A stretch of DNA of 25,579 nt from a virus. Position numbers and translations under genes: made by a program. The DNA lies in IMG/VR virus record IMGVR_UViG_3300034190_000938, positions 1-25,579 of that record; one strand, 5' to 3'. The first letter of the stretch is position 1; the number at the start of each line of letters is the position of its first letter. Under the pieces are notes generated by a model. That model was not told the DNA's origin, ran no database searches, and saw only the letters and a list, made by a program, of their open reading frames with translations. Below, piece by piece: positions 154 through 24,939 of the stretch.

Positions 154-370
154 AAGTAAAGTAAAAGCGAAATTGTTTTCGTTAGAAGCCTATCTAAACA
201 AGGATGGTAATGTTGAGTTGAATTACGAAGCAGTGAAACCAGAGGATTTAGAAAGAGAACTTAACACTGGGTTGCCCATGTACGATGGCACAAGCCAAGT
301 TGCAGCACTGCTTAGATTTATGAGGAAGATGGGAGATGAGATAATGGATGGTTCAAGAAACTACATCTAA
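140..370 (+). CDS. Small hypothetical protein, 76 aa
   Basis: This short plus-strand gene has its ATG 14 nt inside the end of the preceding frame, which suggests translational coupling. The product begins MKQFKSKVKAKLFSLEAYL, continues with an acidic middle, and ends in a helical, Met/Arg-rich stretch (residues about 52-70). There is no signal peptide, membrane segment or known motif. The TAA stop at 368-370 overlaps the TAG of the converging SET gene (367-369 on the other strand), so no intergenic space is left for a terminator. The function is unknown. The coupling to the upstream frame and the clean convergent end are the evidence that the gene is real. Confidence 0.6.
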   Translation: MKQFKSKVKAKLFSLEAYLNKDGNVELNYEAVKPEDLERELNTGLPMYDGTSQVAALLRFMRKMGDEIMDGSRNYI

Positions 371-684
371 GTATGGTAGTTTAGTAGTAGTTCTTCACCT
401 TCAGTTATTAATCTTTTCGTAAAGATATTATACACAAAATGATCATCCCAGTCTTGTGTACAATCTAAAAAACAATTTGGTTTATCGGAGTGGTTGATGA
501 AGCCACCAAGAGGTGTTCTTATATAGGTAAGAATCATTGGCACTTTGATATGTGTAGAACCTATATCCGTGCCTTTCTTTATATCTTGGGCCGCAAAGAT
601 TCCGTGACCATGCACAGAACTTTCTTTTATACAGACTTCTCTAGGCAAAGGATTATAATAAAATCTATTATACTTTACCTTCAT
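367..684 (-). CDS. SET-domain protein, putative protein-lysine methyltransferase
   Basis: SET-domain enzymes transfer a methyl group from S-adenosylmethionine to lysine side chains. The 105 residues are essentially one minimal SET domain with its landmarks in order. VHGHGIFA (residues 24-31) is the N-terminal Gly-x-Gly strand. FINHSDKPNC (62-71) matches the NHSxxPN SAM-binding pseudoknot motif. TEGEELLLNY (94-103) matches the C-terminal GEE-L-xxY motif, with Tyr103 in the catalytic tyrosine position. The length is close to that of small viral SET proteins, and there is no recognisable pre- or post-SET zinc domain. The gene is last in the late block: its ATG abuts the TAA of the 111-aa gene, and its stop overlaps that of a convergent gene. 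The family call is strong. The substrate is unknown; a virion protein or a host protein is possible (inference). The segment between the first and second motifs is short, so some insert elements are reduced. Confidence 0.85.
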   Translation of the reverse strand: MKVKYNRFYYNPLPREVCIKESSVHGHGIFAAQDIKKGTDIGSTHIKVPMILTYIRTPLGGFINHSDKPNCFLDCTQDWDDHFVYNIFTKRLITEGEELLLNYHT

Positions 685-1020
685 TTAAGTTTTGCTCTTA
701 CCCTTTTTATCTTTAAGAGCTTGTCTCATAGATTCTTTTTTATTACCATCTTTATCAAAGTCTAGATAGTCTGGCTTTGCACCAGTTCTACCCCCTGCAC
801 TTTTCTTTTCAAATTTTTTAATAGCACCACCTAAATTGTAACCCATGCCAAACTTTTTCTCTTGAGTCATCATACCCATCGGATCTTTCTTTGGTGCTGT
901 CATGGTAGTTTGCTGTCTGTTTTTTTCAGCAAGTCCACCCATCATCATAGGTTTACGTGGCATTGCCATACCACCACCATACATTTTAGTTGGTCGCTGT
1001 CCATTATTGTACATTTTCAT
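685..1020 (-). CDS. Met/Gly/Lys-rich small protein with a C-terminal DxDxDG segment
   Basis: This 111-aa basic protein has low-complexity sequence. Methionine makes up about 13% of residues, including MMMGG near residue 25, with many Gly and Lys. From about residue 84 it reads DYLDFDKDGNKKE and then a lysine-rich end. DxDxDG resembles a calcium-binding loop, but the acidic residue that should close the loop (position 12) is missing, so binding is doubtful. The gene is coupled to the 1619-aa gene by a TGATG overlap at 1018-1022 and is followed directly by the SET gene. Small proteins of this composition are common next to structural genes in marine phages, but no function is established that I know of. 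It could be a minor internal virion protein. Its composition parallels that of the 122-aa protein at 23892-24260. Confidence 0.75.
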   Translation of the reverse strand: MKMYNNGQRPTKMYGGGMAMPRKPMMMGGLAEKNRQQTTMTAPKKDPMGMMTQEKKFGMGYNLGGAIKKFEKKSAGGRTGAKPDYLDFDKDGNKKESMRQALKDKKGKSKT

Positions 1021-4000
1021 CAGTCTTCTCCTTCTTCATTAAAAATAGGTAACTCCCTAACATTAGATCGTGCTAGTTCTGTTATCATAAAATCTTGAAC
1101 TAAAATACCAAATTCATTTAGTTTTACTCTATCCATGTTCTCTGGGTATAAGAGAACTTCTTTAAGAACTTTAGCAGCGTCTGGATCACCCGCTGCCATC
1201 TTTACCATATCTTGAGCTGCGTTAAGCGACACTCTAACTGCAAACTCTGATCCAACGTAGGCAGGACTAACCATACCTCTCGCCAAGTTATAAACTCTAC
1301 TTAAAATTTCTGTAATGGCAAATCCTATTTTTCTACTACTTGGGCCTGTTAAAGTATCAGGATCTTGAGTAGTGTTTTTTAAATAAACCATTACATCTTT
1401 TAGATCGTTAATGTGTTGTTGATCCATAACTTCATTAAGAATTTTTCTTACATTAGGATTCTCTATAGCTTCTACAATATTTTCAGGATTACTATATCCA
1501 TAGACAAGACTCTTTCCCCCATCAATTTTAGATAAAAACTTACCCTTTTGTACAGTTCTATTACCTTTTGCAAGCAATCCCTCTAAAATAAGTTTAGTTA
1601 GGACATTATCGATTTCTTTAGAATACTTCTCCATGTTTTCTGCACCCAAAGCTAACAAGTCAGATTTTAACTCCTGTATCCCTGTAAGATCTCCTTCTTC
1701 TACATACTTTTTAAAGAATCCCTCTGCGTTACCATACTTACCAAAATCTCTTAATTTAGCTCTGTAATTTTCTTCGAGAGCTTTTAATTGTTGCTCTCCT
1801 TTGCTTACAGATTTTAGTTTTGTTTCTATTTTATTTTTAAATCTATTATACTGAGTTTGTAAGATACTATGTCTTTTCATTTGTTTGACAATATCTTTTT
1901 CATCACTGATTATTTTTGCAAAGTCTATTAAAGGCTCTTGAACTGGTTTACCATTTCTTATAACAGTTACATTTGTTAGACTGCTTAGTTCATTTAATTT
2001 TTCTATATCCAACTCTCCAAAGTCATAACCTCCCTTTTTTTCGTTCAGTATAACCTTTGCTCTAGGACTTATAGTCTCTATTGATTTAACTATTTTATTT
2101 GCCCAACCTGTATAAACCATACCTTCAATGACTTCTTTAGTTATTTTAAAAGCATCGGCAGATGAAGGATCATCCATATCAAACACTTCTTGAAAGTTTT
2201 TTCTGTCTGACAACTGTGTAAATATTCTTCTTACGTCTCCTTGTATTTCAGTTGCAAGAAGAGGATTGTCAGGATCTTTCATGTACTTAGTTATCTTTTG
2301 TATGATAGGATTAAAGATCTGAGATGGAGTTTCTTTTGTAAATACGGCTCGTGTTTCTTCTGGTCGTTTTGTATCTTTTTGAGTTTTTAAGGGTACAATA
2401 TCACTCTTAGATTTATTGTATATAGACAAAGGACCTTTACCATCTCTCAGTCTATCAAATACATTTGATCTGTATATGTCTTTAGAGTTCTGTTGCATGT
2501 CTTTTAAATTGCCTGCAGCAGTTGTTATCAAGTCGTCTATCTCTGACTCAAATGCTTTTACTTCACGACCTAACTCGATATTATTTGTTCTAAAGGCATA
2601 GTTTCTAAACGTAGCTTGTACATCCATAACTTCACTCGGTAAAGCTAGAAACGCATCAAACGCATCATCTTCTGATTCAGAATAAAACATGGCTATGTCT
2701 AGTTCGTCTGCGTCTTTGCTTATAAATTTAGGATTAGCTTTTTCTAATTTTGTAACAGGATCTATTATTATATCTTGTCTATGTAAAGTTTTTAATTTTT
2801 CTATTGTTGAGGGACTGAACTTACTTCTTAAAGTTCGTACACCCATTTCTTTCAAAGAACCTCGTAGTGTTTTTGCTAAAGGTCCTTCTAAAAATTTACC
2901 CTCTGCTGTAAAATATTTACTCAAGGGAGTTTTAAATGTTTCTAACTCTTCTTTTTTTGCTATCAAACTTTTTAACAAAGGCAACACATTTACTGTTTTA
3001 CCCTCTGCTTCCATAGCTTTGTCAAATTCTTTGTAACCAATTTTTCCGTTTGCATAACTTCTGAGAAGTATACTTTCCATTAGATCTTCAGTTAGAACAT
3101 CAATATTTTTTAAATACTTAGTATCTAATCTGTTAGTCTTCATAGTTTCAGCACGTTCTATGAGAGCTTTATGTATTCTACTTGTAATTTTTTCAATGGC
3201 TTCACCTCTTTTTAAATCAGGTTCTAGCTTCATACCTAGTTTAATTGCTGCATTTATTAAAGAGTTAAACTCTTCACTTTTAAAATCTGTGGATCTCTCA
3301 TCTTTAAGAATAGTACTTAAAACTTCTCCCACAAGAATGTTAGCTTGAGTTTGATCTTTTACTAACTCAGTCTTTCCTCTTTGCAAGGCACTTTCTATAC
3401 CTCTTATGATTTTACCAATATCTTCATTTGTTTGAAAATTAACACCTTGCTTTGTTAATTGTTGTTTTAAGTTTTCAACAGATCTGTCGCCAAGTTTAAG
3501 CATTTCTTCTTGTTCTATGATTGCGTCAGTCATGCCGTCAACATTTTTTAAAGATGTAACGTCAGATACATCAATGTTTGTTGCCGAACTTTTTGAAAGA
3601 CCTCGTAGCCAACCTAAACTTGTGAGAGATGCAAAAGTTGTTCTTAATGATTCTTTAACTTTCATTTGCATGTCAGGGTTTGTATTTTTGGCAAAAGACT
3701 TGACTATTCTGTCTTCTAATTTACTAAATTCTGTTATAGAATCTAAAACTAACTCCATGTTTTCTTCACTCATTTTTTCTGATAATTTAAAAACATAAGT
3801 TATTGCAGCTCTTTGTGTTCGATTTAATCTTTTACCTTGTGAGTTTAAATATTCTTCAAATTTTAAAAGATTTCCGTCTAAGAAAAGTTGTTTAGGAACT
3901 CCGGGGATTATTGAACCTAATGATAGTACCTTAGACATAGTGCTATGTAAAGTAGGTGGTTTACCAGTAATTATAGATCCTACCCCTGTTACCAGACCAA

Positions 4001-5879
4001 CCCCTCCTCTAACTATGTATCTACCACCTAAAGCATATCCGATTGCACCCAGACCTTGTGCAGAGTAGTAGTCTAATAAAGGGTCTTCTCCACTTGTTAA
4101 AAGTTCAGCTACAGCAAATTGAGTTAAACTGGCAGGTGCTGATATAGCTAGACCCTCTTTAAATATAGGATAAGCACCCAAACTATATGTATAATTTCTG
4201 AATAACTTACCTCTTATAGTGTTTATAGTGTTGGTTGCTTTTATGTACTCTAAGCTACCTTTTTTTAACTTTGCTCTTTCTTTTATAAGTTTAGCCTTTT
4301 GATCTTTTAATCTTTGTAAAGTGTTTGATACTTTCTGTTGACCAAAACCTATTTCAAGAAATTTATCATTTAAACTTACTTTTTCTCCATCACGAGCTAG
4401 TGCTTGAGCTTTTTGTTTTACACTCATGTCCTCGAACGGATCTTTTTTTAATTTTGTAGGTTTGAGTTCTTCTACTTTTTTTTCTAATTTTCTTACTGCT
4501 TTTTTACCGAGAGTTCCTGATAATTTAGCAAGTGAGGACATACCTAACACGTTCTCAAGGTAGATCATAAAAAATCTTTCACTTGCACCTAATTGATCTA
4601 TACTTTCAAACAGTAACTGTTCAGCTTGATCTCTGTCTACAAATTCTCTTTGTCCTATAACGTTACCATCTAGGTCAGTTATTTGTGTTAGTTCATTAAA
4701 TCTTTCTCTTGTTATACCCCCCGGTTTATCAATTTGTTTTTCGAGTTCTTCAATGATCATAGTATTTACTTGATCAGATAGTAACTCACCACCTAGATAC
4801 TTAAATATTTCTTTATTGGATTGAACCCATTTTTTTCTTTCTTCTTCAGATGCGTTCCAAGCGTCAGTAAAATCAGCACCCTGATCAAACATCTGCTTAC
4901 CTATCATAGCAGCGATAGCTCCTTCTCCTGCAAACTGAGGTAAATCAAATGTCATACCTCTTTGAGTTTCATTCAAAGTTTCTACAAATGTATTGAAAAA
5001 GTTTCCTGTAGATATCCTGTCTATGATAGCCTGCTCTACTCTTACCTCATCTTTTCTACTCATTTGTAGATCAGGATATTTTTGATTTAAATTTTTAAAA
5101 GTTCCAGATACTATCTTTGCAACTTCTAGTCTTCCTTCAGCATATCTTTGTTGTTTGTTCTTTAAAACTACGTCATTATTGTCCGTTGTTTTTACTGCTT
5201 GACCTCTAGTAAATGCTATCTCTGGGCCATCTGCTTTTTTCATACGTGTGATAGTGGTAAAAGCATTATTTACAATAGTATCAAATTTGGGTTTTTGACT
5301 TGAGAATTGAGGGTTTTTACTTAGAAGATACGCATTTTTTAATCGATTATAAGCTTTAGTAGATAACTCTGGTATAGGTTCATTGTTCTCTAACTTACTT
5401 ATGAACTCTTGATATGTGCCTGCAGGTTGTCGTTGTTGTTGGATATCTTCTTGTGCAGTTCTGGCTAATTCCGTATCTTTAGGCAATCCTGCTTTTTCAT
5501 CTTTATCTGTAACAATACCTCTAGGAGATGGTAGAATATTTTGCAACATACCTGCTTTTTTAACAGAGGGTTCTTCTTTTCTTATAAACTTCTTTACGCC
5601 TTCTATTTTAATATTCTTATCAACAACTTTAGCTTTTTCAAATTCCTCAGTTTTTACAGGAGGTACATCTTTTTCAGGTGGTATATAGGCAGAGTCATCA
5701 ACAACAGGAGAAGGAGTTATAACTTTTTCTTCTTCTTGTACGTTTCTAGGTCTTGTCACACCTATATTTAACATACCTGTTTCTTTTTCTTTAAAGTCAA
5801 GAATTCCTTTTTTCTCGGCTTCTTCTTTTGTAATTACAGGTAGATCTTCTACAGTGGTTTCTTCCATGAGAGTAGCCAT
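1020..5879 (-). CDS. Giant putative internal virion / DNA-ejection protein, 1619 aa
   Basis: This is the largest gene in the window, at the distal end of the virion block. That is where T7-like and other podoviruses keep their large internal core or ejection proteins, so the role is inferred from size and position. The N-terminal ~130 residues are charged and probably disordered (runs of E, K and P). Long helical, Lys/Glu-rich stretches follow. A Gly/hydrophobic segment lies around residues 580-660 (ISAPASLTQFAVAELL, then GLGAIGYALGGRY and GVGLVTGVGSII), which could insert into a membrane. I see no transglycosylase or protease motif. Residues 1533-1549 read ARGMVSPAYVGSEFAVR and closely match residues 40-56 of the 122-aa protein. 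The start is coupled to the 654-aa gene by TAATG at 5877-5881. Confidence 0.8.
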   Translation of the reverse strand: MATLMEETTVEDLPVITKEEAEKKGILDFKEKETGMLNIGVTRPRNVQEEEKVITPSPVVDDSAYIPPEKDVPPVKTEEFEKAKVVDKNIKIEGVKKFIRKEEPSVKKAGMLQNILPSPRGIVTDKDEKAGLPKDTELARTAQEDIQQQRQPAGTYQEFISKLENNEPIPELSTKAYNRLKNAYLLSKNPQFSSQKPKFDTIVNNAFTTITRMKKADGPEIAFTRGQAVKTTDNNDVVLKNKQQRYAEGRLEVAKIVSGTFKNLNQKYPDLQMSRKDEVRVEQAIIDRISTGNFFNTFVETLNETQRGMTFDLPQFAGEGAIAAMIGKQMFDQGADFTDAWNASEEERKKWVQSNKEIFKYLGGELLSDQVNTMIIEELEKQIDKPGGITRERFNELTQITDLDGNVIGQREFVDRDQAEQLLFESIDQLGASERFFMIYLENVLGMSSLAKLSGTLGKKAVRKLEKKVEELKPTKLKKDPFEDMSVKQKAQALARDGEKVSLNDKFLEIGFGQQKVSNTLQRLKDQKAKLIKERAKLKKGSLEYIKATNTINTIRGKLFRNYTYSLGAYPIFKEGLAISAPASLTQFAVAELLTSGEDPLLDYYSAQGLGAIGYALGGRYIVRGGVGLVTGVGSIITGKPPTLHSTMSKVLSLGSIIPGVPKQLFLDGNLLKFEEYLNSQGKRLNRTQRAAITYVFKLSEKMSEENMELVLDSITEFSKLEDRIVKSFAKNTNPDMQMKVKESLRTTFASLTSLGWLRGLSKSSATNIDVSDVTSLKNVDGMTDAIIEQEEMLKLGDRSVENLKQQLTKQGVNFQTNEDIGKIIRGIESALQRGKTELVKDQTQANILVGEVLSTILKDERSTDFKSEEFNSLINAAIKLGMKLEPDLKRGEAIEKITSRIHKALIERAETMKTNRLDTKYLKNIDVLTEDLMESILLRSYANGKIGYKEFDKAMEAEGKTVNVLPLLKSLIAKKEELETFKTPLSKYFTAEGKFLEGPLAKTLRGSLKEMGVRTLRSKFSPSTIEKLKTLHRQDIIIDPVTKLEKANPKFISKDADELDIAMFYSESEDDAFDAFLALPSEVMDVQATFRNYAFRTNNIELGREVKAFESEIDDLITTAAGNLKDMQQNSKDIYRSNVFDRLRDGKGPLSIYNKSKSDIVPLKTQKDTKRPEETRAVFTKETPSQIFNPIIQKITKYMKDPDNPLLATEIQGDVRRIFTQLSDRKNFQEVFDMDDPSSADAFKITKEVIEGMVYTGWANKIVKSIETISPRAKVILNEKKGGYDFGELDIEKLNELSSLTNVTVIRNGKPVQEPLIDFAKIISDEKDIVKQMKRHSILQTQYNRFKNKIETKLKSVSKGEQQLKALEENYRAKLRDFGKYGNAEGFFKKYVEEGDLTGIQELKSDLLALGAENMEKYSKEIDNVLTKLILEGLLAKGNRTVQKGKFLSKIDGGKSLVYGYSNPENIVEAIENPNVRKILNEVMDQQHINDLKDVMVYLKNTTQDPDTLTGPSSRKIGFAITEILSRVYNLARGMVSPAYVGSEFAVRVSLNAAQDMVKMAAGDPDAAKVLKEVLLYPENMDRVKLNEFGILVQDFMITELARSNVRELPIFNEEGED

Positions 5880-13713: not shown

Positions 13714-16700
13714 TTATGTCAAAGCTCCTGTTGCACCTACTAATATTGTATTATCACCACTTGATGCAGAACAATAGTAACTAAGCATATATGTTCCTGC
13801 AGTTGATAATGCAGTCAATATATCTGCGTTAATAGCTAATGAAGCATGAGCAGATACTGTATGACCACCACTGTTAATTAGCATGATTGTTCCTGACTGA
13901 CCTTCTGCAGGGTTAGATAAAGTTAAAGTAAAGTTACCCGACGGGGTACATTTAAAGAAGTTAGCAGTTGCTAAATCAAAGTTACCATCGTTATCTGTCT
14001 CTTGGTTACCTGTTGCTCTACCTGCTACAGATGCGTCATCTCCTACAGTTACGTCTCCTGTTGTTGTAACGTTTCTAAAACCTGTTACATCTTTGTTAGA
14101 GTCAACAATAACTGCCTTAGACGCAGATATTGTACCTGCAGTAATTCCGTCTACTAAGTTTAACTCGGCTGCTGTAGATGTAACTCCATCTAGGATATTT
14201 AACTCGGCAGTGGTAGAAGTAACACCATCTAGAATGTTTAACTCGGCTGCAGTAGCAGTTACTCCGTCAAGGATGTTTAGTTCGGCTGCAGTAGAGGTCA
14301 CTCCGTCAAGGATATTTAGTTCTGCAGCAGTTGATGTAATTGACGTACCACCTATCTGTAATGTTGTAGCATTTACTTCACCACTTGAACCGTACACAAC
14401 TGCTTTACTATTTACAATAGTTCCTGCACTTGAGCCATCTACCAAGTTAAGTTCGGCAGTGGTAGAGGTCACCCCATCTAGTATATTAAGTTCTGCTGCA
14501 GTAGAAGTAACAGTCGTACCATTAATTGATAAAGCATCTGTTTCAAGAGTTCCATCAAAAAATCCATTTTTAAATTGTAAAGAGGAACTTCCTAAGTCTA
14601 CATCATCATCTGTAACAGGAAGTAATGCACCATCTTGTAATTTTATTTGGTCTGCAGCTCCTGCTCTGAATATAATGTTATTATCAGTAGCGAAGTCAAT
14701 ATCATTATCTGCGTCTCTACCAATAACGAGACTTGTATTTGTTATAGAAGTTAGTCCTGTTTGTGAAGCATTTACTACAAAATCAAGATTATCATTAGTT
14801 GTGTCATAACTAACTGTAATACCTGTTTCAGTATTACTAGATACCATGTTGTTTCCGACAGTATCCCTGATAAATGTAGCTAGTGCAGTTCCATTTACTG
14901 TGATTGCATCTGCTTCAAGTGTACCATCTATGTCTGCATTACCACTAATGTCTAAGGTAGCTGCATCAAGCTCACCTGTAATAGTAAAGTTTCTTATTCC
15001 TGTGTAATCTTTATTAGCGTCAAGTATAACTGCTTTAGAAGCTATGGCAGTGCCGACAGCAGTTGAACCTAAGTCTAGTGCATTTATCTCTCCTACTACT
15101 ACTGTAGCACCATCAAGTATGTTCAACTCTGCAGCAGTAGAGGTTACGCCATCAAGTATATTTAGTTCTGCAGCAGTAGAGGTAACAACTGTACCATTGA
15201 TAGATAACGCATCTGTCTCAAGTGTTCCATCAATATCTGCATTACCTGATATATCTAGTGTAGCTGCGTCAAGTTCACCTGTAATTGTAATATTTCTACC
15301 ACCTGATATGTCTTTGTTAGAATCAGTTATAATAGCTTTACTTGCTATTACAGTTCCGTTTGTAATGCCATCTATTAAGTTGATGTCTGCAGCACTAGCA
15401 GTAACTCCATCAAGGATGTTTAGTTCTGCAGTTGTAGCAGTGACTCCATCCATAATATTGAGTTCTGCAGTTGTAGCAGTGACCCCATCCATGATGTTTA
15501 ACTCTGCAGCAGTAGCAGTAACTGTAGTGCTTGCTATTGATAAAGCGTCTGTTTCTAAAGTACCATCTACATCTACGTTGCCTGATATATCTAAAGAAGC
15601 TGCAATGAGTTGGTCTACTTGTAAATCTTCGTGGCTAGAACCTAACTTTAATTCAAACTTAGGACCTGTTGTGTTATATGTAAATGTAGCATCATCTCCA
15701 CTACCACCTTCAATAGTTATACCTGCACCATTAATAACTGCACTTGTACTATTGTCGCTATCTAATACAATATTATGATCACCTATATTAACAGTGTTTG
15801 AATTAACTGTAGTTGTTGTTCCTGATACAGTTAAGTTTCCTGCTAAAGTTACATTAGCACCACTAAAGGTCATAGCAGTTGTAGGTGTAGAACCTGATTG
15901 AATTACTAACTCACCACTAGAGTTTTTAAAGTTACCAAAAGTTGTCCCACCGTCTTTTAAAGTTATGTCTGTGCCATCTGCGTCAAGTATGATATCTCCT
16001 GCAGAATCTAACGTTAATGTAGAACCTGTAATATTATTGCCATTTACATCTAAATTACCACCCAACTGAGGTGTAGTATCTTCAACTATATTATCTAGAC
16101 CTGTGCCTGATACAGCTAGTCCTGAAACAATTGTGCTTCGTGTAATCTTTTTAAGACCACCAGTATCCGTGTCTACTGCTATAAATACATCATCGTTAGC
16201 TACTGTGGATATCTCTGCTAAGTCACCAACTGCTATGGAGTTAAAATTTGTACCATCTGCAACAAGTAAATTACCTGCAGTGTTTGTACCCATAGTGATG
16301 TCATCACCTGCAACTGTTAAGTCACCTGTAATACTTAGGTTTCTAAAACCACTTACGTCTTTGTTTGAATCTGCTATAACTGCTTTTGATGCAGATACTG
16401 TTCCTGCTGTTATACCATCTACTAAATTTAACTCGGCTGCTGTGGATGTAACCCCATCAAGTATATTTAGTTCTGCAGTTGTCGATGTAACACCGTCAAG
16501 TATGTTTAATTCTGCAGCAGTTGATGTTACGCCATCTAGTATGTTTAGCTCTGCAGTGGTTGCAGTTACACCATCTAAAAGATTTAGCTCTGTTGCAGTT
16601 GCAGTAACTGCTACGTTTTCGTTTATCTTTGGACTTGTTAATGTTTTGTTTGTTAAAGTTTGAGTTGCTGCAAGTCCTACAAGTGTGTCTGTAACAGCAG

Positions 16701-18357
16701 GTAAAGTTAATGCAGTGTTACCAGAAAAATCGCTATGAGCAGGAGCTTTAAGTGCAGCGTAGTGTGCGTTGCTAGACTCACAATACAATCTAAGTTCTGA
16801 TTGTGACCCAGTGTTTTTAAGATCAATAACTCCACCCTCAACTGTAAGATCATCACCCACAGAAATATCACCTGTAACAGTTAGAGAATCTACAAAGGCA
16901 TCTTTAAATCTAACACCAGTTGTGCCTAAGTCTACATCACTATCTGTTTGCGGCCCAAAGACTCCATCTGCAACAAATACTTGTTCTGCATTGGCTGCAT
17001 AAAAATGTATCTCGTCAGCAGTCTCAAAATCTATTTTTGTTTGATCGTCTTCTCCGATCTTGATGTCTGTTGCAAGTAAACTGGTTATACCTGTTTGAGC
17101 TGCATCAACACTAATTACAGAACTAGATGCAGATAAACCTGTGCCTGCAAATAAATTAGCAAGAGATGCTATGGTTGTTAATTGTTCTGTAGATCCATCA
17201 GAATCTAGTGTAGCAAGTTTATCACCGTTTGCAGGAGTAACGTCACTTAACTCAGATAAGTCAAGAGTTAAAGTTACATCACCTGATGAGCCACCCCCAC
17301 TAAGACCTACACCTGCAGTTACAGCAGTAATATCGCCTGCTGCTAAATATGTTGTCAAATCAGAAGCAGGTATTTGTTTTGTAGTAGTGCCATCAATTAT
17401 AATAAAAGCATCATCGTCTGCAATAGTAATAGATGAAGTTGATTTAGCTGATCCATCAAGTAAATTGATTTCGCCTGCAGTAGATGTTACTCCATCAAGA
17501 ATGTTAAGCTCTGCAGTGGTGGATGTTACTCCGTCTAATATGTTAAGCTCGGCTGCAGTAGATGTCACCCCATCTAATATATTAAGTTCTGCTGCAGTAG
17601 ATGTAATTGATGTGCCTGCTATTTGTAAGGTTGTAGCGTTTACTTCTCCACTAGATCCATACACAACTGCTTTGCTGTTTACGATTGTTCCTGCACTTGA
17701 CCCATCAACTAGATTTAATTCTGCAGTAGTAGACGTTACCCCATCTAAGATATTAAGTTCGGCCGCAGTAGATGTTACACCATCTAATATATTTAGTTCT
17801 GCAGTGGTTGCAGTTACACCATCTAATATATTTAGTTCTGCAGTTGTTACTGTAGCACCATCTAATATTTCAAGCTCTGCTTCAGATATACCTGCACTAC
17901 CTATCGTCAATGTTCCTGATATATCTACGTTACCGTTTATATCTACAGTTGTTGCAGCAATTTGTATTTCTGTGTCTGCTACTAAGTCTAATTGTCCATC
18001 GGTAGATGAATTGATGTATATTGCTGTGTCTCTAAATTGTAGCTTCTCTGTAGAAGCAATAAGTATGTCGTCACTAAACTCAAAGTAGTCCTCATCTTCC
18101 ATCCATTTTAGTACACCATCTGATGTTTCACCATCAAAGGTTATTGTTATATCTGTTCCTGCTGTCCCTGCACCAAACGTAAGAGTGTTGCCTAACAGTT
18201 TTGTTATAGGGCCACCTTCGTTGGCTGTGCCATCGTGGGTGTGTCCTGTGCTTGCTTGAAAGGCTGCTAATAACTGATTAAACTCATCATTGGTATGAGC
18301 TGCAGTTATTACGTCTCCGTCAGTGTATGAAGACTGTCTAGTGTATGTATCTCCCAT
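13714..18357 (-). CDS. Long tail fibre with about 28 copies of a 13-residue motif, 1547 aa
   Basis: The N-terminus (residues about 1-60, YTDGDVITAAHTNDEFNQLL and HTHDGTANEGGP) is the type found on marine phage tail fibres, presumably the virion-attaching end. The body is beta-rich with clusters of the motif TAELNILDGVTST. These fall at roughly residues 159-217, 249-302, 579-647, 941-997, 1057-1091, 1281-1306 and 1339-1402, with beta segments between them (for example TGELDAATLDISGNADIDG, present twice). The last ~100 residues form a globular-looking end with TLTLSNPAEGQSGTIMLINS. Such repeats build trimeric fibre shafts in known phage fibres, and host binding is inferred. The ATG directly follows the TAA of the nozzle gene. 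The frame is intact through all the repeats. Confidence 0.85.
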   Translation of the reverse strand: MGDTYTRQSSYTDGDVITAAHTNDEFNQLLAAFQASTGHTHDGTANEGGPITKLLGNTLTFGAGTAGTDITITFDGETSDGVLKWMEDEDYFEFSDDILIASTEKLQFRDTAIYINSSTDGQLDLVADTEIQIAATTVDINGNVDISGTLTIGSAGISEAELEILDGATVTTAELNILDGVTATTAELNILDGVTSTAAELNILDGVTSTTAELNLVDGSSAGTIVNSKAVVYGSSGEVNATTLQIAGTSITSTAAELNILDGVTSTAAELNILDGVTSTTAELNILDGVTSTAGEINLLDGSAKSTSSITIADDDAFIIIDGTTTKQIPASDLTTYLAAGDITAVTAGVGLSGGGSSGDVTLTLDLSELSDVTPANGDKLATLDSDGSTEQLTTIASLANLFAGTGLSASSSVISVDAAQTGITSLLATDIKIGEDDQTKIDFETADEIHFYAANAEQVFVADGVFGPQTDSDVDLGTTGVRFKDAFVDSLTVTGDISVGDDLTVEGGVIDLKNTGSQSELRLYCESSNAHYAALKAPAHSDFSGNTALTLPAVTDTLVGLAATQTLTNKTLTSPKINENVAVTATATELNLLDGVTATTAELNILDGVTSTAAELNILDGVTSTTAELNILDGVTSTAAELNLVDGITAGTVSASKAVIADSNKDVSGFRNLSITGDLTVAGDDITMGTNTAGNLLVADGTNFNSIAVGDLAEISTVANDDVFIAVDTDTGGLKKITRSTIVSGLAVSGTGLDNIVEDTTPQLGGNLDVNGNNITGSTLTLDSAGDIILDADGTDITLKDGGTTFGNFKNSSGELVIQSGSTPTTAMTFSGANVTLAGNLTVSGTTTTVNSNTVNIGDHNIVLDSDNSTSAVINGAGITIEGGSGDDATFTYNTTGPKFELKLGSSHEDLQVDQLIAASLDISGNVDVDGTLETDALSIASTTVTATAAELNIMDGVTATTAELNIMDGVTATTAELNILDGVTASAADINLIDGITNGTVIASKAIITDSNKDISGGRNITITGELDAATLDISGNADIDGTLETDALSINGTVVTSTAAELNILDGVTSTAAELNILDGATVVVGEINALDLGSTAVGTAIASKAVILDANKDYTGIRNFTITGELDAATLDISGNADIDGTLEADAITVNGTALATFIRDTVGNNMVSSNTETGITVSYDTTNDNLDFVVNASQTGLTSITNTSLVIGRDADNDIDFATDNNIIFRAGAADQIKLQDGALLPVTDDDVDLGSSSLQFKNGFFDGTLETDALSINGTTVTSTAAELNILDGVTSTTAELNLVDGSSAGTIVNSKAVVYGSSGEVNATTLQIGGTSITSTAAELNILDGVTSTAAELNILDGVTATAAELNILDGVTSTTAELNILDGVTSTAAELNLVDGITAGTISASKAVIVDSNKDVTGFRNVTTTGDVTVGDDASVAGRATGNQETDNDGNFDLATANFFKCTPSGNFTLTLSNPAEGQSGTIMLINSGGHTVSAHASLAINADILTALSTAGTYMLSYYCSASSGDNTILVGATGALT
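14150..14340 (-). repeat. Tandem 39-bp coding repeats, C-terminal cluster of the tail fibre
   Basis: Five contiguous units of about 39 bp, each encoding a (T/A)AELN(I/L)(L/V)DG(V/I)T-type 13-mer, are visible from 14150 to 14340. Further clusters lie at 14440-14515, 15085-15185, 15365-15535, 16415-16620, 17450-17610 and 17705-17880. Units differ mainly at third codon positions. There are no spacers, so this is not a CRISPR array. Confidence 0.9.
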
Positions 18358-20136
18358 TTATCTTCTTGCTCCTAATTGATATTCTAACTGAAATCCTTTT
18401 AGTGAATAAGGTGCAGTTACTCCCCCATCGTTTACCCTTAGTGCTACTGCGAAACCAGATCCTTCTACAGGTTGTCTAAATAAAGGTTGTGATGAACCCC
18501 CATACGTACCCTTTGTTGTTGATGTCTCACCGTATGTTGATGTTCCATATATTGCGGCCACATCTGCTGAGTCTAAAGGGTAAGCTGCAGGTCTTGCAGA
18601 TTCTTTAGATTCGTAATCATATCGAAGAAATAAATCTGCATCTATGGATGACTCTGGTGCAAAGTTTACAATTACTCTTTGCATATTTTTTCTTATACCC
18701 GGATCGTTTAAAGTAAGATCAGGACTTCTGTATCTAGCGTTTATAGCTGTACCATCAAAATCATTACCTTGTTCTTGTCTGTACACAAAACCATCACCTG
18801 ATCCGTGTATAGATATAACATTCCCTTGTTCTATAAATGTATCAGTAGCTGTTGGTCTTATACCTCGAATTTCTGAAAACTCAAAGTTTTGTCCTTTTAA
18901 AACACATATAACACCCTCTGTTAAATTTTCACCTACATCACTTTTTGTAAAAAATATTCTGTATTGTGTTTTATCAGGTATAACAATCGATGTAAATTTT
19001 GCAGCATTAGCTAAATTAAAATCAAACAAAGACTGCACATTAGAACTTATAGTACCCAACTCAACGTCACCAATTCTTGCAGTACCTGCAATAGTACGTA
19101 ATCCATCAGGACCTAAGAATATAAGGTCACCTGCAAATTCCTGTATTGTCTGTCCGTTTATACAACCTATATCTCTTGTTACAGCCGTTATTGCAAAATT
19201 TGCTTGAGAAGTTCCTGATAATTTAAATATTCTATTTTGACAGAATATAAATAAATCTTCTCGGAAAACTTTAAGTCCTGTTATCTCATCGTCAACTCTT
19301 ATACTTCCACCACCTACAGCAACGGAAAAATTATCTTCATCAAACGGCACACTAAATACAAGCTCTTGCTTAGTCCCAGACATACCTGCATAAAACATAT
19401 GTTCTTTAAATGCTACTACAAACTTAGCACCTGCCACTGCAGGTGGAAATAAATCAGACACTAATGTTCCTACTTCGTGATCTGCTGCAACACTGCTTGA
19501 TGTTGCTCGTGTTACTCCTGTAAGAGTAGTAGATGTTTTACCTGTGTAAGTAAAAGTTTCAGCACCGATGAGTACAGAACCAGAGCTATCAAACTGAGAG
19601 GTATCAACTACTGTAATAGTGCCTGAACCTGACATACCTGTGCCTGAAGCTATCGCAGCCAACAACGTAGTTGATTGACCTGTACCTGTGCTTGCAGGAC
19701 TAACATCTGTCGCAGCAAAAGATGTGTTGAACACCGTTGGAGCATTGTTACCGTCTGCAACAATAAATTTATCATTGCCGTCAAAGTTAAATCTTTCAAA
19801 CGTATATGTGCCTGCACTTGTTCGACCAGTATCTCGTTCTGTCCAACTTGATCCACCTGCATCTGCAGTAAATATTTTTTCGCCACGTGCTGCAATAACT
19901 TTTGAGTTAAAAGTTGCAACCATCAAAACCTCTTCAGCAGAAGAACTTGTTTGTGGTACAACAGCACTTACATATTTATTAAAACCATTTATTCTTCTGT
20001 AGCCACCCTCTATGTCAGGTTCAAAGTTAAGTAACTCAATGGCTTCCCCCGGTTTCATTATAAAAGTAGATTTGTCTTTAACTAATCCACCTTCACATAC
20101 AAAAGGGTAAGCACCTGTTTGGCTTAACTCTGGCAT
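18358..20136 (-). CDS. Tail nozzle / stabilisation protein, 592 aa
   Basis: The protein follows the head-tail adaptor gene (TAATG overlap at 20136) and precedes the tail fibre. This is the order adaptor-nozzle-fibre known from short-tailed phages of the P22 and SU10 kind. The start has the typical text MKPGEAIELLNFEPDIEGGY, followed by GGYRRINGFNKY. Beta-rich sequence follows (VLMVATFNSKVIAARG, ERFNFDGNDKFIVADG), consistent with a beta-propeller-like tail tube piece that forms the nozzle. Residues about 145-229 are an inserted Ser/Thr/Gly-rich module (GTITVVDTSQFDSSGS, LIGAETFTYTGKTS, LTGVTRATSS). The C-terminal half contains FKEHMFYAGM and IFLGPDGLRTIAGTA-like strands. The family assignment rests on synteny and N-terminal similarity. 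Confidence 0.75.
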   Translation of the reverse strand: MPELSQTGAYPFVCEGGLVKDKSTFIMKPGEAIELLNFEPDIEGGYRRINGFNKYVSAVVPQTSSSAEEVLMVATFNSKVIAARGEKIFTADAGGSSWTERDTGRTSAGTYTFERFNFDGNDKFIVADGNNAPTVFNTSFAATDVSPASTGTGQSTTLLAAIASGTGMSGSGTITVVDTSQFDSSGSVLIGAETFTYTGKTSTTLTGVTRATSSSVAADHEVGTLVSDLFPPAVAGAKFVVAFKEHMFYAGMSGTKQELVFSVPFDEDNFSVAVGGGSIRVDDEITGLKVFREDLFIFCQNRIFKLSGTSQANFAITAVTRDIGCINGQTIQEFAGDLIFLGPDGLRTIAGTARIGDVELGTISSNVQSLFDFNLANAAKFTSIVIPDKTQYRIFFTKSDVGENLTEGVICVLKGQNFEFSEIRGIRPTATDTFIEQGNVISIHGSGDGFVYRQEQGNDFDGTAINARYRSPDLTLNDPGIRKNMQRVIVNFAPESSIDADLFLRYDYESKESARPAAYPLDSADVAAIYGTSTYGETSTTKGTYGGSSQPLFRQPVEGSGFAVALRVNDGGVTAPYSLKGFQLEYQLGARR

Positions 20137-20822
20137 TAAACGGCTCTCATATATAACTGCTTATTAATTAACTCAACACGCATACGTTTAAGTGATTTTT
20201 CAAATTGTGCTTGTGTTAATTGTGCATTTTGTACTTCACCTCGTAAAGTAAATGCGTAATATTTTGCTCGTTCTGTTATAACTGTTTCAAATCGAGTAGG
20301 TATTATTGAAGTATCTGTTGATGCACTTAACGCTGTGTGTGTAGCGTAATAGTAATACTTTACTGTGTACGTTGATTTATCAGGCACAGGAGATAATCCT
20401 ATATTATCTTGTGGATCTTGATAAACGTATACTGGTATAGCTCTTGAATTACCAGTAGGATCTGTATCTCTTTCGTGGTAATTATCTAGATACTCGCTGT
20501 ATGTTATATATTCTAATGTAGTTTCTTTTTTATCTGATGCTTCAAGAAATGTAAAAGTATCAAAATCTACAGTTTTTGTATCTGTCGTGCTTAAAGCTGA
20601 ACGTGTGTATAAACGTGTGCCTGCAGTTGTAGTAAAAGTTTTTGCTGTGACCGTAAAGGGCCACTCGGTATCTGCGTTGATTATGTCATCTATAGCACGA
20701 TTAACGTAATCCTTTACTGCAGTTTGTATACCTCTTGATGAACTGAAAGTGCTACTTGTTAGTTCTACTTCGTTTAGATCCCGTAGTACGTTGTTTATTA
20801 GTGTTAGGTAACTGCTTGCCAT
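20136..20822 (-). CDS. Head-tail adaptor protein (SU10/P22-type), 228 aa
   Basis: The N-terminus YLTLINNVLRDLNEVELTSS, followed by VKDYVNRAIDDIINADTEWPF, is characteristic of the helical adaptor proteins that dock on the portal in marine short-tailed phages. A beta-rich middle follows (LEYITYSEYLDNYHE, DNIGLSPVPDKSTYTVKYYYY). A helical C-terminus ends the protein (ERAKYYAFTLRGEVQNAQL and RMRVELINKQ). The nozzle gene downstream supports the assignment. The start has only a weak ribosome site and lies about 70 nt inside the overlapping frame of the A10-interrupted gene. The amount of adaptor made may therefore depend on how ribosomes behave in that upstream gene (inference). Confidence 0.75.
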   Translation of the reverse strand: MASSYLTLINNVLRDLNEVELTSSTFSSSRGIQTAVKDYVNRAIDDIINADTEWPFTVTAKTFTTTAGTRLYTRSALSTTDTKTVDFDTFTFLEASDKKETTLEYITYSEYLDNYHERDTDPTGNSRAIPVYVYQDPQDNIGLSPVPDKSTYTVKYYYYATHTALSASTDTSIIPTRFETVITERAKYYAFTLRGEVQNAQLTQAQFEKSLKRMRVELINKQLYMRAV

Positions 20823-22183: not shown

Positions 22184-22664
22184 TCCATTCTCCGTGTTCC
22201 ATAGTTTTTGATAAATTATCTGCACGTTTGCCTACCTGCTTTGCCCAACGAGAATTAAGCATCTCGGCTGCAGCCCATTCAAAGTCCTGTCTCTCTATAG
22301 CTTCCCACATCTTTTTAAACTTCATAAGACGTGGTATACCTAAATTAAATCCCATATCTACAAGACACATCTGTCTTGCTTCGTCAAGTTCCATTACGAG
22401 TGGCTTTTGTTTGACGAGTTCTTGTTCTACAATATCGATGTCATTGTTGCAAAGATAGTAGGCTTCTTCTTTAGTTAAGCCATCAGATATAATCTCGTCA
22501 AGTGTTTTGTTCATGTGCATAAGTTCGTAATCATCTATACCACGACCCTCAAGATTACGCCCGATGCCAATCGTGCTTATGCCCAAAGAATCTTTGTAAG
22601 GCTCTAGTACGAGTCCCTCGTGTTGAGCTATTTTTTCAACTAATGTATCTCTATCGTACTTCAT
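22176..22664 (-). CDS. Endolysin: T4-type lysozyme (glycoside hydrolase family 24)
   Basis: The enzyme hydrolyses the N-acetylmuramic acid to N-acetylglucosamine bond of peptidoglycan to release progeny. The catalytic region is plain. HEG contains Glu16, PYKDSLG contains Asp25, and STIGIGRN contains Thr31. The spacings of 9 and 6 are the same as Glu11, Asp20 and Thr26 of T4 lysozyme. Later the typical helical lobe is seen (DMGFNLGIPRLMKFKKMWEA; AAAEMLNSRWAKQVGKRA). At 162 residues it is a full-length single-domain enzyme with no signal peptide, so it needs a holin to reach the wall. The 130-aa holin candidate lies three genes upstream. The start is coupled to the 92-aa gene by ATGA. Confidence 0.93.
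   Translation of the reverse strand: MKYDRDTLVEKIAQHEGLVLEPYKDSLGISTIGIGRNLEGRGIDDYELMHMNKTLDEIISDGLTKEEAYYLCNNDIDIVEQELVKQKPLVMELDEARQMCLVDMGFNLGIPRLMKFKKMWEAIERQDFEWAAAEMLNSRWAKQVGKRADNLSKTMEHGEWND
22190..22193 (-). promoter_or_regulatory. Ribosome binding site inside the lysozyme gene
   Basis: GGAG on the minus strand, 6 nt before the ATG at 22181-22183. It decides the shorter 57-aa start over the upstream in-frame ATG at 22225. Confidence 0.6.
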
Positions 22665-22939
22665 ACCATCTCTGCCTTTCTACCTCGATGTATTCTTCCA
22701 CCTGTCGCTGCTGATGCTCTTTTTTTACCTGATGCAGTTACAGACCACTTAACAGCTTTAGGACCTGTCTTTTTCTTTGCTTCCTGCTTACTTATTCTAC
22801 TTGCAACCTTTGCAGGTCTACATGCAGGATAAGGTCTAGACTTTTTTTCTTTACCAGATCGACCACACTTCTTGCCAGTTTTAACGTCACGCCAATCTTC
22901 TTTAAACCACTTTGTTAATCCCCCTTCTGGTTTGCCCAT
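22661..22939 (-). CDS. Small basic protein, GLTKWFKEDW family, 92 aa
   Basis: The N-terminus reads GGLTKWFKEDWRDVKTGKKC, then GRSGKEKKSRPYPACRP. This is a conserved signature I know from small proteins of phages and large algal viruses (I believe DUF5872). Conserved Trp, Cys and Gly-Arg positions suggest a compact, possibly metal- or nucleic-acid-binding fold, but no function is known to me. The C-terminal half is Lys/Arg/Ala-rich (KKKTGPKAVKW, ASGKKRASAATGGRIHRG). The start overlaps the stop of the 53-aa gene (TAATG), and the end overlaps the lysozyme start. It is one of several lysine-rich small proteins in this block. Confidence 0.8.
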   Translation of the reverse strand: MGKPEGGLTKWFKEDWRDVKTGKKCGRSGKEKKSRPYPACRPAKVASRISKQEAKKKTGPKAVKWSVTASGKKRASAATGGRIHRGRKAEMV

Positions 22940-23100
22940 TAGTAAGTTCCACCACGTTTCTTGTATGTTCTAACTAACCAAGCATTTGCATACGCTGAAG
23001 GGTATACTTTAAATTTACGCTTTGCTTCTGCTTTTACACTAGCGTACAACTTTGGATTTTTTGGCTTTGAGCCACTCTTCTTTTTTTTAGGTGTTGCCAT
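22939..23100 (-). CDS. Small basic YPSAYAN-type protein, 53 aa
   Basis: This short frame reads MATPKKKKSGSKPKNPKLYA, then a helical segment with KRKFKVYPSAYANAWLVRTY, and ends KKRGGTY. The YPSAYAN-x(4)-R-x-YKK-x-GG pattern is a known small-protein motif that, in algal viruses and phages, often appears next to or fused with the GLTKWFKE-type domain of the following gene. The two genes here share bases (TAATG) and may act as a pair. AAGGGAG 8 nt upstream supports the ATG at 23098-23100. Function unknown. The high charge suggests nucleic-acid or virion contact (inference). Confidence 0.8.
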   Translation of the reverse strand: MATPKKKKSGSKPKNPKLYASVKAEAKRKFKVYPSAYANAWLVRTYKKRGGTY

Positions 23101-23126
23101 GTTTATGCTCCCTTACATGCACAAAT

Positions 23127-23148
23127 CTTCATACTTGGTTGTATGAAG
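23127..23148 (-). other. Perfect 8-bp inverted repeat in the gap before the 53-aa gene
   Basis: On the minus strand CTTCATAC-AACCAA-GTATGAAG forms an 8-bp stem with a 6-nt loop. It lies in the 104-nt gap (23101-23204) between the holin candidate and the 53-aa gene. No T-tract follows, so it is not a typical terminator. It could be an mRNA stability hairpin or a protein-binding site. The rest of the gap shows only AT-rich sequence and the AAGGGAG site. Confidence 0.6.
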
Positions 23149-23204
23149 TCTATGTTTGGATAAATCCCCTGAGTGTTTTTTAAATAATTGTAATAGTAAT
23201 TTTA

Positions 23205-23597
23205 TCATTTCTTTTTTAACATCTTTGCTGCTTGACCTACACCTTTAATACCAAACGATGCAGATATAGCTATATATAACAAGTATTGATACCAGTCTGG
23301 TAGTGTTGCAAGAACTTCAAAGCCTTGCTGTACATACTCTCGCATCCCCGGAATAAACACCAGTATTGCAGGAGCTAGTAAAACAACCAAAGCAAACTCG
23401 TCTTTCCAACTATCATTGGTAGCATCTGCCATCTTTCCTTCCCACTCGACTTCACCTTTTGCAACCTTTTCTGCAACCGATGCACGAGCTTTGGCTTCTG
23501 CTATTTTAGCTTTGCCATCTGCTTTAGTTTTCTCTAGTTTGTTTTCAAACCACGTTCCTGCTAAGTTAGCGATAGGACCTATTAATGCTTGAAACAT
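23205..23597 (-). CDS. Holin candidate (GTA_holin_3TM-like), 130 aa
   Basis: Holins make lesions in the cytoplasmic membrane so that the endolysin can reach the wall. Residues 1-15 are moderately hydrophobic, residues about 20-55 are a charged Ala/Lys/Glu helix, and the family-like SWKDE motif is at 63-67. Two clear membrane segments follow, at about 68-84 (FALVVLLAPAILVFIPG) and about 103-121 (YQYLLYIAISASFGIKG), before a Lys tail. The layout matches the holins described for gene transfer agents and marine phages. The lysozyme three genes downstream supports a lysis cassette. Only two strong membrane segments are visible, so the topology is uncertain. Confidence 0.75.
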   Translation of the reverse strand: MFQALIGPIANLAGTWFENKLEKTKADGKAKIAEAKARASVAEKVAKGEVEWEGKMADATNDSWKDEFALVVLLAPAILVFIPGMREYVQQGFEVLATLPDWYQYLLYIAISASFGIKGVGQAAKMLKKK

Positions 23598-23598
23598 A

Positions 23599-23889
23599 TT
23601 AACACTTCCATCTTTTTCTAGCTTGTCTTAATCTGCTGTTAGGATTCTTGGCTGCTTTGGGAAACTTTTTCATTTGTCCTGCACTTCTTGCACAAAATGA
23701 TTTACGTCTTTTTGCAGCCTTGCTCCCCGGCTTGACTTTACCAGTCACAGCAGTTTTAAGTTTGCTTCCGGGGTTTTCTCTACGGTACTTGGCAACACCT
23801 TTAGCAGTCATGCCTGCACCTTTTTTTGTAGGGCGTTTATCACCACTCTTGATGGTGTACCCTTTCATGCTACCCCTTTTACTAGCCAT
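23599..23889 (-). CDS. Small Lys/Arg-rich protein with KSFCAR motif, 96 aa
   Basis: The sequence contains GAGMTAKGVAKYRRENPGSK, LKTAVTGKVKPGSKAAKRRK and SFCARSAGQMKKFP, ending with a Cys (KRWKC). I know this composite signature from small marine phage and cyanophage proteins (I believe DUF6321). No function is established to my knowledge. About a third of residues are Lys or Arg, and two Cys are present (about residues 66 and 96). It sits between the Gly/Lys-tailed 122-aa gene and the holin candidate. Nucleic-acid binding is plausible from charge but unproven. Confidence 0.8.
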   Translation of the reverse strand: MASKRGSMKGYTIKSGDKRPTKKGAGMTAKGVAKYRRENPGSKLKTAVTGKVKPGSKAAKRRKSFCARSAGQMKKFPKAAKNPNSRLRQARKRWKC

Positions 23890-23891
23890 GA

Positions 23892-24260
23892 TTATCTAGC
23901 CTTACCACCACGAGCCATGTATTTCTTGGTTTTGCCACCACCTGCCATGTACTTCTTGGTCTTGCCGCCACCTTTCATCATCTTTTTGGCTTTGCCACCA
24001 CCCATCATCATTTGTTTTTTGCCACCTGCAGTGCCACCTTTAGCCATCATTTTTTTCTTTTTCATGGCTTTGCCACCACCTGCTTTTTTCATTCTTGCTT
24101 TTGCTTCTCCTGCTACATAGCTAGGACTAATCATACCTCTAGCTATGCTTAAAGCTCTTGAGATATCTTGCTGAATTATTCTTCCTGACGGATCTGCAAT
24201 TTTAGCTATTTGTCTTGCTAAGCTTTGTAACTTTGATTCTTTTTTATCTGCTCCCGGCAT
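23892..24260 (-). CDS. Small protein with virion-type motif and histone-tail-like Gly/Lys/Met repeats, 122 aa
   Basis: Residues 1-57 form a helical head. It contains LARQIAKIADPSGRIIQQD (residues 14-32), matching residues near 505-518 of the 654-aa protein, and ARGMISPSYVAGEAKAR (40-56), matching residues 1533-1549 of the 1619-aa protein. Residues 58-122 are low-complexity, built from GGGK, KKMM and two exact copies of GGGKTKKYMA (97-106, 107-116), ending RGGKAR. The tail is strongly basic and resembles histone N-terminal tails in composition. It follows the 225-aa gene with no gap to speak of and precedes other basic proteins. A role in the capsid interior or in binding DNA is inferred. The tail could also be a lysine-methylation target of the SET protein (speculative). 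Confidence 0.8.
   Translation of the reverse strand: MPGADKKESKLQSLARQIAKIADPSGRIIQQDISRALSIARGMISPSYVAGEAKARMKKAGGGKAMKKKKMMAKGGTAGGKKQMMMGGGKAKKMMKGGGKTKKYMAGGGKTKKYMARGGKAR
23913..23972 (-). repeat. Two tandem 30-bp coding repeats (GGGKTKKYMA)
   Basis: Copies 23913-23942 and 23943-23972 differ at 4 of 30 bases, all synonymous third positions. The encoded decapeptide is identical, so the repeat looks maintained at protein level and not freshly duplicated. Confidence 0.9.
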
Positions 24261-24261
24261 T

Positions 24262-24939
24262 TTATTCTCCCTCTGAATACAAGTTGTTAAATGTTACTGC
24301 AGGATCAAGATAAGTTTCGTGAATCTCTGCGTTGTGTATGTACTGGCTCGGTCTAAAGTCTGGAGGACCTTCCCCAGTTTCCCAAAGTGCAGGACTTGTC
24401 GCCCTTACTCTGTTATTTGGAAGAGCAACGATGTTGCCAGTCCAATCCCCTGCATCTATCAACTGTAGTACGTGACTTTGTTTGTGTTGTGCAGGATCAT
24501 CTGCTATGTCACTTTCTGTATAATCTACAGTAAACAGATATTGTCCCTTATGAAACTCCCCATCTATTTTGCATATCCACGGGGATGAACTAACTCTGTC
24601 TAATCGTACAATCGAGTGGTGGTGTGAACTGCAGTCCCACGGTTGAGCCAAATGCGTTGGCATTATCTGCGGCCACTCTTCGTACGGTATATCAGCAACC
24701 AGTGCTGTTATCGGCATCCTTGCCCACATTGCACCACCGTGTACGTTCGGTTCGTTTTCATCGTCATCACTTTCACATCCTGTAAATACAACTTGAAAAC
24801 TTAGACATCTGTCTGGTACTGTGTTTACGGCTATTGCTAGTCCGTGTAAATATTCACCATGATACATTTGGTGATTGTGTGTGAATTCTTTTCTTACCCA
24901 ACATTTAAAGTGTGGGATGTTACTTATCAGATACGGCAT
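24262..24939 (-). CDS. Unrecognised structural-block protein, 225 aa
   Basis: This is a soluble, beta-looking protein rich in His, Trp, Asp and Pro, unlike its basic neighbours. Segments include PHFKCWVRKEFTHNHQMYHG, LSFQVVFTGCESDDDENEPN, WPQIMPTHLAQPWDCSSHHH, KIDGEFHKGQYLFTVDY and a long polar C-terminus. HNH-like His and acidic clusters are visible but do not form a nuclease motif that I recognise. It has no membrane segment. It is the first gene after the capsid terminator, with AAGGT about 7 nt before its ATG. I have seen similar small proteins next to capsid genes of marine phages without an assigned role. A minor head or completion function is only a positional guess. Confidence 0.65.
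   Translation of the reverse strand: MPYLISNIPHFKCWVRKEFTHNHQMYHGEYLHGLAIAVNTVPDRCLSFQVVFTGCESDDDENEPNVHGGAMWARMPITALVADIPYEEWPQIMPTHLAQPWDCSSHHHSIVRLDRVSSSPWICKIDGEFHKGQYLFTVDYTESDIADDPAQHKQSHVLQLIDAGDWTGNIVALPNNRVRATSPALWETGEGPPDFRPSQYIHNAEIHETYLDPAVTFNNLYSEGE

Follow-up and report, generated by a model that had tools for sequence, protein, structure and literature searches.

A minimal SET-domain protein as candidate single-gene cargo of marine tailed phages

Work on SET-domain enzymes has dealt almost exclusively with chromatin or effector enzymes that act on eukaryotes, and a review regards bacterial SET proteins as having arisen in prokaryotes, with suggested roles in chromatin (PMC3980110). 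A 25,579-nucleotide stretch of the IMG/VR virus record IMGVR_UViG_3300034190_000938 (hereafter the window) encodes a SET-domain protein of 105 aa on the minus strand at positions 367-684. The locus raises the question of whether so small a protein is a methyltransferase and, if it is, what it would methylate. An original prediction, made from the letters of the window, read it as a minimal lysine methyltransferase closing a phage virion operon, and named a phage structural protein as a possible target beside a host chromatin or ribosomal protein.

The open reading frame (ORF) is intact, with 105 codons running from the ATG at 684 to the TAG at 369-367. As predicted, the product gives a significant match to the SET profile PF00856 (E=5.8e-12, 46.4 bits against a cut-off of 22.4), and it aligns near full-length with the unnamed family phrog_28741 (E=2.8e-21, residues 10-103 to positions 3-93 of 100). 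By sequence its best PDB relatives are the KMT2/MLL SET domains (phmmer 5.4e-5; profile 1.6e-10), and the chlorovirus protein vSET is also recovered by profile (E 7.9e-7). A link to the Legionella effector AnkI/LegAS4 was rejected at an NCBIfam score of 26.5 against a cut-off of 550, which reflects the common SET motif only, and the antisense ORF 490-765(+) was judged spurious because the conserved frame is the minus-strand one. AlphaFold, run on a 24-row alignment of the window and locus proteins, returned a model with a pLDDT of 85.3 and a pTM of 0.77, which Foldseek matched to SET structures at E 1.6e-6. MLL1 is the top structural match (VIA-align Z 12.8, 100 residues, rmsd 2.5), and the proposed comparison with small viral SET proteins bore the identification out, with the model superposing on vSET at Z 11.2 (89 residues, rmsd 2.4). 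The modelled SET fold spans the whole domain; the superposition extends over residues 1-105 and takes in the C-terminal segment that would thread through the NH loop to form the pseudoknot.

The three SET landmarks occur in order, exactly at the residues first proposed. The GxG motif of the SAM-binding loop is G26-H-G28 (601-609, codons 26-28); NHSxxPN, N64-H-S-D-K-P-N70, associated with SAM binding and the pseudoknot strand, occupies 475-495 (codons 64-70); and GEELLLNY, G96-E-E-L-L-L-N-Y103, with Tyr103 at the catalytic position, lies at 376-399 (codons 96-103). All seven key residues are kept in 122-124 rows of an alignment of 124 distinct relatives (G26 and H65 in 122, G28, N64 and N70 in 124, E98 and Y103 in 123 with one gap). 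The family signature RTPLGG (502-519, codons 56-61) is invariant at R56-T57-P58-x-G60-G61, an invariance that is partly ascertained, as the signature was part of the search pattern and of the extraction filter. The middle of the protein is unusual: the span between the first GxG glycine and the NH asparagine is 36-40 residues in most of the family and about 52 in vSET at aligned positions, the window protein being about 16 residues shorter here, and the motif II/SET-I region is reduced. In the close family its place is taken by LGxTHIKVPMI with H45 (550-552, codon 45; H in 122/124). A motif II Tyr/SET-I substrate region of usual length, which is typical of SET proteins and not needed by the SET profile, is absent from the phage protein. 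As both profile and predicted fold agree with SET, the shortened middle is, on sequence and model, a variant trait and no exclusion from the family. Two residues before Tyr103, L101 aligns with the Tyr of TYDY in MLL enzymes, which we take to be the F/Y-switch position; this residue is mostly L or V in the family, and product specificity can therefore not be read from the sequence. Profile, fold and conserved catalytic residues uphold the reading as a minimal SET lysine methyltransferase, with activity itself a prediction: the product is probably active, transferring methyl groups from SAM to lysine.

An HMO-2011-type podovirus is the best assignment for the window as a fragment, because its tail protein (20136-20822) is closest to that of Pelagibacter phage HTVC033P, followed by Roseobacter CRP phages and HMO-2011. 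Among the cultured HMO-2011-type phages in INPHARED no SET carrier was found. The position given in the original prediction was right: the minus-strand late block ends with SET, which comes directly after the 1619-aa and 111-aa ORFs described next. The last large gene of that block (1020-5879, minus) encodes 1619 aa, probably an internal virion protein by its position and size, and gave no significant Pfam match and no INPHARED match. Directly upstream of SET, as left flank of the insertion site, is an ORF of 111 aa (685-1020, minus; cluster 49) that is rich in Lys, Gly and Met, with 19% Lys. On the other side the SET stop runs into the last bases of a convergent ORF of 76 aa (140-370, plus; cluster 50), the right flank, a detail additional to the original prediction. 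At the SET junction, terminators, promoters and inverted repeats were either absent or no more frequent than by chance. Elsewhere in the window, a fibre-like protein of 1547 aa (13714-18357, minus) is full of TATTAELNILDGVT-type repeats, and a 225-aa ORF (24262-24939, minus) matches phrog_3704, labelled ferredoxin in the moron/host takeover class (E=1.4e-30), with no Pfam match.

The two flanking genes made it possible to see the site with and without SET. We gathered relatives of both for the window's own site; the resulting counts refer to the best matches listed and are not frequencies in nature. In these matches SET lies between the flanks in 7 of 67 distinct flank pairs, and most of the 38 IMG/VR relatives of the 76-aa ORF among the matches listed have no SET beside them. 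Locus L183, with flanking proteins 93% (left) and 99% (right) identical to those of the window, is missing precisely the 318 bp of the ORF, start codon to TAG, and L192 (70% and 100%) lacks the very same segment. The alignment of these empty sites thus returns the ORF itself as the inserted unit, placed where two gene blocks converge stop to stop. At the same site two further loci (L186:2814-3137(-) and L189:2817-3137(-)) carry a different gene of about 107 codons on the strand opposite to SET, whose product has a signal-peptide-like start. The intergenic site is a hot spot for small cargo genes, of which SET is one.

The contexts of the relatives are wider still. IMG/VR yielded 208 relatives with a first query, and 581 among the first 600 pattern matches with a second; more than 580 marine viral contigs carry a relative. 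Their clustered and annotated neighbours include a DNA polymerase A/DUF3310/UvrD helicase/primase group, the large terminase, baseplate genes gp25-gp6, glycosyltransferases and a PD-(D/E)XK-like nuclease, and others stand at the end of a late block. The closest relatives outside the window's type sit in replication modules, where they are 76-83% identical to the window SET. When the nine context labels are mapped on a tree of 124 SETs, 20 changes are required, compared with a mean of 70 after shuffling and a possible minimum of 8, and one supported clade of 18 SETs mixes late-block ends (7) with replication modules (11). Three cultured phages carry the gene, annotated as a hypothetical protein, each in a different setting: Kolga EXVC016S next to a primase/helicase-type gene, P-RSM6 next to the gp25 baseplate gene and P-SSM7 next to nrdAB/talC. 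The family thereby occurs in an HMO-2011-type podovirus, a SAR11 phage (Kolga) and Prochlorococcus myoviruses. Given the precise presence or absence of the gene and the many contexts of its close relatives, SET is best read, from these comparisons, as single-gene mobile cargo.

What such a cargo would act on is a matter of graded likelihood. We lean towards a minimal SET methyltransferase that is carried by phages as a stand-alone gene and acts on a conserved host protein. Catalytically competent and made during infection, the protein would bind SAM through its GxG and NHSxxPN segments and use Tyr103 in methyl transfer to a lysine of this host protein, which could belong, for example, to the translation or transcription apparatus or to the nucleoid, to the benefit of the phage; the late-block end would be a merely tolerated landing site for a one-gene cargo of marine tailed phages. 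The target is probably a bacterial protein rather than a product of the genomic neighbours, since the gene is found in unrelated parts of genomes, and a host target is preferred because one enzyme core, little changed, is found in phages that differ in type and host and is free to move between replication-type and virion-type modules. Three observations count against this explanation: loci of the type 'lysrich16', cupin-SET fusions that precede ejection genes, and the altered motif II Tyr region and F/Y-switch (L101, with H45 in the shortened middle).

The first two of these belong to another explanation, which we regard as rather unlikely: methylation of a virion protein, either a small lysine-rich protein or an internal or ejection protein, by which assembly, stability or ejection would be tuned. 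Its appeal comes from the late-block position and from the 19%-Lys neighbour, which adjoins SET in 9/9 loci of the window's type ('late_end'). The window has five small lysine-rich ORFs with 19-25% Lys, four of them (21-25% Lys) forming a basic cluster at 22661-24260 (22661-22939, 22939-23100, 23599-23889 and 23892-24260), and homologues of this cluster flank SET in another phage lineage, the 'lysrich16' loci, in which SET lies between homologues of the lysine-rich genes at 22.7-23.9 kb of the window. In addition, distant SETs in phages are joined in one protein with a domain that carries a short tail fibre or adhesin annotation, and in phages P26218 and PH1 the fusions lie directly before a DNA-ejection gene. 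However, a scan of 61 SET groups found no significant excess of lysine-rich genes within two genes of SET (10.6%, compared with 7.7% further away in the same loci; p=0.67), and lysine-rich neighbours were on this ground set aside as substrate; the closest relatives outside the window's type are housed in replication modules; most phages with the same flanking genes, among the matches listed, are without SET; and the fusion cousins are only about 30% identical, with a fibre label that is annotation. Constant linkage to virion genes was not found, as contexts vary and SET is absent in 60 of the 67 distinct flank pairs listed. The step from operon position to structural target is not supported, given the precise insertion, the varied contexts of the relatives and the missing lysine-rich enrichment, but the distant cupin-SET fusions of P22-like podoviruses still lend a virion link some support.

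These fusions (phrog_34170: Rhodoferax phage P26218 gp30, Pseudoalteromonas phage PH1 gp49 and MW202744.1) combine a cupin-like tail domain with a C-terminal SET. They share with the window protein a shortened SET, the RTxxGxxxNHSxxP segment and an ending E/D-E-x-T-x-D-Y; they differ in the fused domain, with its short tail fibre annotation, in lacking H45 and in their place before an ejection gene in two phages. The cupin-SET fusions in P22-like podoviruses lie at L178:2530-3291, L179:3467-4342 and L180:2965-3795. The cupin-like domain, a reading from sequence and not a profile match, has 55 matching phage records, mostly without SET and several annotated as short tail fibre or adhesin, and a single-sequence search of the MW202744.1 fusion protein against the PDB gave no match.

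Another possibility is that the protein keeps the SET fold but has no methyltransferase activity and serves, for instance, in binding or as a decoy, which would fit the strongly shortened motif II/SET-I and the L or V, with no aromatic residue, at the switch position. We consider it improbable, because a dead enzyme is not expected to need the GxG, NH, Glu and Tyr positions that practically every relative has kept. Selection speaks in the same direction: most pairwise dN/dS values fall at 0.04-0.17 and a single close pair reaches 0.30, which indicates strong purifying selection on the family. Counter-defence by methylating or blocking a host anti-phage factor, a special case of a host target that overlaps the preferred explanation, would suit a gene that is patchily distributed as single cargo and shares a variable site with other small genes in alternation, but it is likewise improbable, with no PADLOC match (in a library of defence, not counter-defence, proteins), no recognised defence gene nearby and nothing specific in its favour.

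To place the minimal SET protein among known systems, we compared it with its nearest counterparts. The phages of phrog_28741 (P-RSM6, P-SSM7 and Kolga EXVC016S) carry members of the same family, with the RTPLGGFINHS signature, 99-102 aa and 42-46% identity, which differ in their hypothetical annotation, in having no THIKVPMI block and in not standing at a virion-block end. Bacterial hosts have no H3. The PBCV-1 protein vSET (A612L) is, like the phage SET, a stand-alone viral SET without pre- or post-SET domains; it differs in coming from a chlorovirus with a eukaryote host and a histone target, in its 119 aa at 27% identity and in a GxG-to-NH stretch about 16 residues longer. It acts as a dimer on histone H3 Lys27, the H3K27 methylation being covered in a review (PMC4023394). 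Cellular SETs (MLL/KMT2, SETD8, archaeal and bacterial) have the SET fold and core motifs in common with the phage protein, yet are larger, possess SET-I and often accessory domains, and are about 20-27% identical. On a SAR86 chromosome (L086:5983-6321) there is a close homologue of about 46% identity, a lone gene without recognisable phage neighbours and, among the genomes searched, the single cellular representative of the close family. Among 398 Pseudomonadota genomes a family-level homologue occurred only in this SAR86 genome, the eight other matches being short generic SET stretches (E 1e-4 to 1e-3), and 199 genomes of its order held only that homologue and one partial match. A cellular origin of the family was rejected on this single occurrence, and within the sampled genomes the close SET family looks phage-centred.

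The idea that SET proteins are known mainly outside phages needs amending. Since UniProt-derived names already label several uncultured Caudovirales proteins SET, SET in phages is a known kind, and a SET-domain ORF is named, though not studied, in one phage paper. A survey of HMO-2011-type genomes does not contain the word methyltransferase (PMC9038755), and in the open-licence literature, with subscription papers outside this coverage, we found no study of the minimal phage family; the minimal, mobile and phage-centred variant appears to be undescribed.

The presence of a conserved minimal SET on hundreds of contigs from phages whose bacterial hosts lack histones implies a target in the bacterium or the phage, and the question of SET function in prokaryotes becomes directly testable. 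An assay is practical because the protein is small, stands alone and is present in the cultured phages Kolga, P-RSM6 and P-SSM7. The locus is, in addition, a clear case of a marine-phage site that takes up single-gene cargo. More tentatively, a phage-centred minimal SET may rewrite a conserved bacterial housekeeping protein by lysine methylation in the course of infection, as a one-gene cassette passed between unrelated marine phages that have different hosts. If that is true, protein-lysine methylation would be a general takeover tool of ocean phages.
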